From NCBI GenBank assembly GCA_022616275.1, contig JAKEFB010000218.1:1-54777 (forward strand): a stretch of 54,777 bases of DNA, written 5' to 3'. This stretch comes from Chloroflexota bacterium. Lineage in GTDB: Bacteria; Chloroflexota; Anaerolineae; Promineifilales; Promineifilaceae. Below the pieces are notes generated by a model. The model saw nothing but the letters and a program-made list of their open reading frames with translations, had not been told where the DNA came from and searched no databases. Every line of letters starts with the position of its first letter. Position 1 is the stretch's first letter. A program made the translations under genes and the position numbers. Below, in pieces: positions 2,056 to 3,188 of this stretch.

Positions 2056-2107
2056 GAATACACGGCTCCTCACCTCACTCGCCCGGCGATTGTCTCGCCG
2101 GGCGGGC

Positions 2108-2374
2108 TTATCCTGAACTTACTCTCTCCGCCAACCACAAATTGACGAGCGTTTCCGGCTCAACTCCCCGCAGTTGGGCTTCTTTACTGATCTTTTCGTA
2201 CAGTTCCGGGTCAAGTGTAACCCGCCTGCGCCGCCTGGCCCGGATCTCAAACTCGACCTCGTAAGTCTCATCCCAGTAGTCAGCCAGGCTATGAGTATCC
2301 CAAAACTCCGCCAATTCTTCTAGCGTTGTAGCTTTAGAGATACTAGAACGTTCTTGCTCTTTATTTTCGTCCAT
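2108..2374 (-). CDS. CopG/BrnA-type antitoxin
   Basis: 88 residues from ATG at 2374. The segment TTLEELAEFWDTHSLADYWD matches the acidic N-terminal signature of the CopG-antitoxin family that partners BrnT-like toxins. It is followed by a basic ribbon-helix-helix region (RRRRVTLDPELYEKISKEAQ) and a helix ending ETLVNLWLAERV. A reading from 2419 would add 15 residues wholly within the upstream gene and is not preferred. Its start lies inside the last codons of the upstream kinase-toxin fusion (overlap 2361-2374), so the two are translationally coupled. It would neutralise the toxin and repress the operon. Confidence 0.8.
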   Translation of the reverse strand: MDENKEQERSSISKATTLEELAEFWDTHSLADYWDETYEVEFEIRARRRRRVTLDPELYEKISKEAQLRGVEPETLVNLWLAERVSSG

Positions 2375-3188
2375 GACGTTTCCGCTCTTTCCTATCCATA
2401 TCACGGGCACTGATAACAAGCGCCCTGTTGCCCGGTTTTAAGATGAAAAACACAATGAGATAACGGCCGGCGTAGGTGCTTCCACTAGCTGAATAGACAT
2501 CTTCACCCGGTCTTAAGCCTTTCTCAACGAAGCGAAGCCTTGGTCTATTAAGTAGAAACGGCGCAAAATGCTGCTCGATCAACGTGACCATCTCCCCAGC
2601 CGCCCGCGATCCATCCACTTCAACCATCGTCAGTCCATAGGCTTCGACTTGTTCCCTCACCCGCTCCGCCAGGAGCATATCCCGCCTGAACAGGTTCATC
2701 CTCGCTCGTTCCGGGTCACTCACCTCCTCCCGGAATGAAGGCTTGTTGCGCCGTTCCATCGAGGCCCATTTGAATGCCTCCGTCGGTACCAGCCAGATCG
2801 CCTGGCGCTTGCTCGCCAGCACCGGGACCAGAAGCCCTGGCAGCAACCCGAAACCCTCCGCCACGATCATCGGCGCTTGAGGCAAGCCAAGCAAATCCTC
2901 CACCACCAGCGGAAACCGGTCTTGAAAACTCTGCCAGGCGCGCCGCAGCAGTTCCTCCGGCTCTGGGTACACCCAGCGCTCGTCCATAGAGGCGTTCAGG
3001 AAAGCGCGATAACGCGGCTCTGTTTCCGCCAGGCGTTCCATCTGGCGCGGGTCATGCCGGTCATAATGGTACAGTTGGCATCCATACCGTTCGGCGATAC
3101 GCTCCGTGGCCGTCGTCTTGCCGCTATCGGTCGCTCCCCCGATCCAAAGCACATGAGAAAGGGCCTGTTTGAGGTCTCGCCCCATCAA
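2361..3188 (-). CDS. Fusion of a P-loop kinase-like domain with a BrnT-like toxin C-terminus
   Basis: 275 residues. Residues 1-215 are a P-loop NTPase with Walker A GGATDSGKTT (17-26), an acidic VVEDLL/MIVAEGFG region, and an Arg-rich lid (about 155-180), resembling small-molecule or nucleoside kinases of unknown substrate. Residues 217-275 (bases 2361-2540) match the C-terminal part of BrnT-type RNase toxins: VEKGLRPGEDVY, GRYLIVFFILKPGNRALV and the ending ISARDMDRKERKR. The N-terminal 30 or so residues of a normal toxin are absent, and the kinase runs straight into it. The CopG-type antitoxin follows with a 14-base overlap. Either a deletion merged two neighbouring genes in frame, or this is a real two-domain toxin. 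Both halves are recognised from motifs only. Confidence 0.7.
   Translation of the reverse strand: MMGRDLKQALSHVLWIGGATDSGKTTATERIAERYGCQLYHYDRHDPRQMERLAETEPRYRAFLNASMDERWVYPEPEELLRRAWQSFQDRFPLVVEDLLGLPQAPMIVAEGFGLLPGLLVPVLASKRQAIWLVPTEAFKWASMERRNKPSFREEVSDPERARMNLFRRDMLLAERVREQVEAYGLTMVEVDGSRAAGEMVTLIEQHFAPFLLNRPRLRFVEKGLRPGEDVYSASGSTYAGRYLIVFFILKPGNRALVISARDMDRKERKRHGRK

Follow-up and report, generated by a model that had tools for sequence, protein, structure and literature searches.

Organization of the locus

The window, that is the whole stretch of 54,777 nucleotides analysed here from a Chloroflexota bacterium, contains on its minus strand an open frame in which a P-loop kinase-like protein runs into the C-terminal part of a BrnT-like toxin, followed by an overlapping antitoxin gene and by a hairpin (Table 1). 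The fused protein has 275 amino acids when read from the TTG at 3188, from which its residues are numbered here, and 274 when read from the ATG at 3185. The latter codon is the likelier start, and a GGAG lies nine bases 5' of it. A first-pass annotation of the sequence had described one uninterrupted kinase-BrnT frame with the antitoxin starting inside its last codons, and both features were borne out, the frame at 2361-3188 and the antitoxin ATG at 2374. Its division of the protein into two parts also holds, but the limits had to be moved, because similarity to BrnT starts at residue 209-213 and similarity at the DNA level at 2549 (residue 214): the kinase ends at about residue 212 and not 215, and the BrnT part comprises 63-64 residues and not 59.

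Chance similarity is far exceeded in both parts, the best values among the matches listed being E = 2.6e-24 (66%) and 4.1e-24 for the tail and 7.3e-68 (54%) for the kinase. The fusion gives no whole-domain match above the curated cut-off of the Pfam family PF04365 (23.6 bits against 34.5, covering profile positions 25-77 of 77), a cut-off passed by all three intact relatives of the tail that were scanned (94-95 amino acids).

Table 1. Features of the kinase-brnT locus and positions in the window
Feature	Position	Strand	Evidence or remark
Fused open frame	2361..3188	-	275 codons and stop
P-loop kinase part, residues 1 to about 211-212	2556..3188	-	54% to the free 213-aa protein L033; 15 invariant residues kept
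Walker A GGATDSGKT, residues 17-25	3114..3140	-	Sequence
Kinase-brnT joint	2546..2558	-	Onset of DNA similarity and drop in GC3
C-terminal BrnT part, residues about 212-275; first ~31 residues of normal BrnT absent	2364..2555	-	Up to 73% to intact BrnT
Overlap of fused and antitoxin frames, 14 bases	2361..2374	-	Shared by 24 of 38 relatives
Intact BrnA/CopG-type antitoxin, 88 aa	2108..2374	-	PF12441, 35.9 bits (cut-off 28)
Perfect hairpin 3' of the antitoxin, 9-base stem	2081..2103		Pattern occurs four times in the genome; reversed control absent

The kinase part

Comparison with 13 other members of the family revealed 15 invariant residues, all of which are present in the kinase part of the window; the G-G and G-K of the Walker A motif are invariant in all 13. 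The closest relative among the matches listed is a 213-amino acid frame of genome G289 (L033), with 54% identity over 8-213, followed by proteins of G629 (51%), G619 (50%) and G076 (L025, 222 amino acids, 46%); more distant relatives include L003 (206 amino acids) and L005 (225 amino acids). The relatives compared are free proteins whose termini fall at about the point where BrnT similarity begins in the fusion. Free kinases stop at the joint or just past it, one of them a dozen residues after HFAPFL; L093 ends in HFAPFLQGGGAATSKD-stop, against HFAPFL-LNRP in the window. The kinase of the window is therefore complete save for its few last residues, and is probably functional. The question raised in the first annotation, whether the tail might be kinase-family sequence, is answered by the same comparison: the free kinases compared end at the joint, the tail matches intact BrnT, and the tail is BrnT.

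Neither Pfam nor NCBIfam placed the window or the relatives scanned in a named kinase family above cut-off, so that the label "kinase" is a guess from the Walker A motif and from weak matches. PADLOC gave no match for the window and weak matches only (E 0.0056-0.024) for two relatives. A sequence search of the PDB with the fused protein returned nothing except one chance match, and a profile search of the PDB returned weak matches, the best of which (8.6e-5) is an adenylate kinase 9 entry. This unnamed P-loop kinase family is spread over the phylum and also occurs in four records of the plasmid collection (H1-H4), from Nonomuraea, Embleya, Streptomyces and Gemmatirosa.

The joint and the BrnT tail

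The frame unites a part of kinase origin and a part of brnT origin, and the joint between them can be placed by several lines of evidence. At the DNA level, resemblance to brnT genes sets in at 2549 at the earliest, the codon of residue 214; at the protein level, the alignment with BrnT starts at query residue 209-213 for 15 of the 20 tail rows that head the list of matches. GC3 drops at the joint: the kinase has 0.72, the tail 0.42 and the antitoxin 0.53. A search of the genome for the missing N-terminal part of the fused brnT returned only an intact paralogue on contig C309. The same genome also contains a second short BrnT-like frame (L023, G000 contig C150, 1501-1644) of 65 amino acids, which matches only profile positions 32-77.

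The tail corresponds to the C-terminal two-thirds of BrnT, intact relatives counting about 95 amino acids, and is 70% identical over 66 amino acids to a toxin of G015 and 73% identical over 63 amino acids to L004, L056 and L058. Of the 19 tail columns that are conserved in 90% or more of 39 BrnT rows, it retains 18; the rows were taken from frames of at least 85 amino acids only, which leaves broken copies outside the count. The exception is a Tyr to His change at residue 272. The conserved R, R-D-M and E-R residues of the C-terminal strands and helix of BrnT are present. The tail is predicted to fold into four strands and one helix, and pLDDT averaged over ten residues is 74-91 for residues 211 to 260, then 69 and 56. 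The kinase part of this model, for which the alignment input consisted of BrnT relatives only, is poor (mean pLDDT 54).

What the tail lacks lies N-terminal to the position of the joint, where a Lys is found in 37 and a His in all 39 of the BrnT rows; the fusion has a gap at both. In the related toxin Aave_1720, Lys-17, His-18, Phe-29 and Glu-86 are reported to be essential for RNase activity and toxicity (PMC10714953), and for BrnT an effect of the Lys, His and Glu on RNase activity had been described before (PMC10714953). By alignment position, Phe-29 would correspond to a leucine of the fusion and Glu-86 to the retained Glu268. Because the Lys-His pair is lost, the BrnT tail is expected to be inactive as an RNase.

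Trees of the tail and of the antitoxin were computed from 34 rows (L018, L020, L030, L045 and L050 were left out). In the tail tree the branch of the fusion, at 0.19, is not longer than the median end branch (0.22), a length compatible both with a recent event and with constraint. For the dN/dS of the tail, dS was saturated or undefined in most pairs.

The antitoxin, the overlap and the downstream hairpin

The antitoxin matches the whole PF12441 domain above its curated cut-off, and scores 20.8 against the NCBIfam BrnA model, under the cut-off of 60. It groups with good support (100/98) with ten antitoxins from modules in which the toxin, too, is close to the fused tail, and its branch in the antitoxin tree is 0.53 compared with a median of 0.38. 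Since the 14-base overlap is the commonest layout among relatives, it is ordinary and indicates no special coupling of the fusion. Three further sites with the hairpin pattern were found in the genome, two on contig C159 and one on C221, and the reversed control was found nowhere. The hairpin is probably a terminator common to the antitoxin and to the convergent gene at 1243-2055.

Distribution of the kinase-BrnT architecture

The first annotation had proposed a search for the same architecture in other genomes. We ran it on 60 relatives, 57 genomes of the order, 397 of the class and 400 of the phylum, four overlapping sets each of which includes the genome of the window (G000), and the fusion was present in that genome only, the result for the 397-genome set applying to the matches listed. 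For the 397 genomes, matches were listed to about E 2e-11 and six candidates were scored per genome; a match spanning both parts would rank near the top. Among named genome contigs, 11 loci were found, each matching query residues 201-275 only. Viral contigs yielded no match with the fused protein and no relative when queried with the kinase alignment, phages yielded no match, and the four matches in plasmid records are all confined to the kinase part. No strain with the unfused order, a kinase gene followed by an intact brnTA module, was found in these searches, and no kinase-BrnT fusion appears in the titles and abstract openings of the papers listed on BrnT/BrnA, on BrnT with kinases and fusions, on degenerate modules and on toxin-antitoxin gene fusion in Chloroflexi.

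Several candidates were rejected. G637 has a nominal span of residues 4-270, but the stretch that follows its kinase comes after a stop codon and is a chance alignment, not BrnT sequence; similarly, the alignment of L093 runs slightly past its own kinase stop. The Lys-His pair is present in L069, L071, L073, L076 and L078, which are toxins with open DNA ahead and no recognised gene joined to them, and L031 and L056 appear to be of the same type.

Damage to related brnT genes

Sixteen brnT copies of the same class, picked by odd frame length and thus not a sample, allowed a comparison with the fusion locus. The N-terminus is clearly lost or broken in six of them: it is absent in frame in L070, L080 and L082, lies in another frame in L079 and L083, and is interrupted by a stop codon in L084. 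In all six, as at the fusion locus, the tail survives and is followed by an antitoxin frame (84-94 amino acids); unlike the fusion, however, they show no recognisable gene joined to the toxin. The N-terminal status of L077 is uncertain and its antitoxin frame has just 56 amino acids, L081 is cut at a contig end, L072 has an altered C-terminus and no antitoxin frame, and the remaining seven copies appear whole. Loss of the N-terminus may be a route by which brnTA modules decay repeatedly.

Of 33 relatives, 25 have a frame of at least 80 amino acids on the same strand that terminates no more than 200 bases ahead of brnT; this is a count of mechanical frames, made with no control, and some of the frames look non-coding. 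Examples of brnTA modules near a preceding unrelated gene on the same strand, likewise listed with no control, are L058, where the two overlap by 11 bases, and L063, L049, L046, L059 and L064, where they are 3 to 24 bases apart. Because brnTA modules often sit close behind other genes and the front of brnT is damaged elsewhere, a deletion that removes the front of the toxin is an easy path.

Origin and nature of the fusion

The locus is likely to be a disarmed brnTA module, produced by a deletion that fused a kinase gene to a truncated brnT. A brnTA module would originally have lain behind the kinase gene in the same direction, and one deletion would have removed the last few codons and the stop of the kinase together with the promoter, the start and the first ~31 codons of the toxin, happening to put the two frames in register. 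The product would be a normal-length kinase that retains its start and its conserved residues and carries about 64 residues of BrnT as a C-terminal rider that, without the Lys-His pair, would have no RNase action. The antitoxin would still be translated through its overlap with the fused frame, its own active partner being gone. The two origins, the joint, the loss of the Lys-His pair, the intact antitoxin frame and the absence of a second case from the searched genomes (among the matches listed for the 397-genome set) are seen directly; we infer the single deletion, the working kinase, the dead toxin and the coupled translation. Altogether, the fusion looks like a one-off, probably recent, disarmed toxin-antitoxin pair and not like a new kind of toxin. 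The 18 conserved columns and the tail branch of ordinary length would also fit a retained function, and count against reading the tail as a dead remnant.

Of the two readings offered in the first-pass annotation, an in-frame deletion fits the joint, the origins of the two parts and the losses, whereas a new toxin layout finds no recurrence in the sets searched, has lost the Lys-His pair and contains a kinase that ends as free kinases do. In such a layout the kinase domain would stand in for the front half of the RNase, and the chimera would be a toxin restrained by the antitoxin. The intact antitoxin behind the fusion speaks for it, as does Glu268, if this residue indeed matches by position the Glu reported to be essential; but the kinase contributes at the joint only its own C-terminal helix, and the architecture recurs in none of the sets of 57, 397 (among the matches listed) and 400 genomes, so that we regard a working toxin as highly improbable. 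An error of the assembler, by which two unrelated loci, one with a kinase gene and one with the terminal part of a brnTA module, were joined, is a less remote prospect, though still an unlikely one. The assembly is a draft in 309 contigs, its contamination is estimated at 5.5%, base composition shifts at the joint, and the join is absent from the other genomes searched. However, the assembly contains a single full copy of the 201 bases that span the joint, with 11 further matches that are short (15-29 bases) and due to chance, and thus no repeat that could cause a misjoin is seen. Random joins would moreover leave the frame open, as it is here, in no more than about one of three cases, and the antitoxin is also low in GC, as expected of an acquired module.

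There is, finally, a small chance that the BrnT tail has been kept as a docking handle, with the antitoxin binding and controlling the kinase or the complex repressing its own operon. The tail is free of stops, retains 18 of its 19 conserved columns, is predicted to fold and has a branch that is not lengthened, and the antitoxin is intact. The conserved tail is, however, equally explained by a recent event, and the intact antitoxin proves little because antitoxins persist behind plainly broken brnT copies. No second genome with the fusion was found in the sets of 60, 57, 397 (among the matches listed) and 400, and a simple scan before ten intact brnT copies found no inverted repeat comparable to an operator, which is weak evidence. 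An antitoxin-regulated kinase is possible but unsupported, and we retain the disarmed module as the probable explanation.

Significance and comparison with known systems

The fusion illustrates one route by which a toxin-antitoxin module may be disarmed while its antitoxin survives: the front of the toxin is gone, and the new start provided by the neighbouring gene would keep the antitoxin overlap translated. The broken brnT copies of related genomes suggest that decay by N-terminal loss is repeated, and this could be counted across genomes. If the tail does bind the antitoxin, a toxin remnant would have been reused as a regulatory handle, turning a toxin-antitoxin pair into an enzyme with a dedicated protein regulator.

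The unnamed P-loop kinases (L033, L025, L092, L093) resemble the fusion in the length of the kinase part and in all 15 invariant residues, but are free proteins without a BrnT tail. With the BrnT/BrnA type II module (PF04365/PF12441), the locus shares the C-terminal BrnT part, the toxin-before-antitoxin order, the 14-base overlap and the intact BrnA/CopG-type antitoxin; in contrast to that module, the first ~31 residues of BrnT, including the Lys-His pair, are replaced by a whole kinase. The fusion can also be compared with the BrnT-BrnA fusion genes, of which 28 prokaryotic and 4 eukaryotic cases are given in Table 2 of PMC11980606. In those genes, as described there, brnT is likewise joined in frame to another gene, but the partner is the antitoxin, whereas here the partner is the upstream kinase gene and the antitoxin has remained separate.
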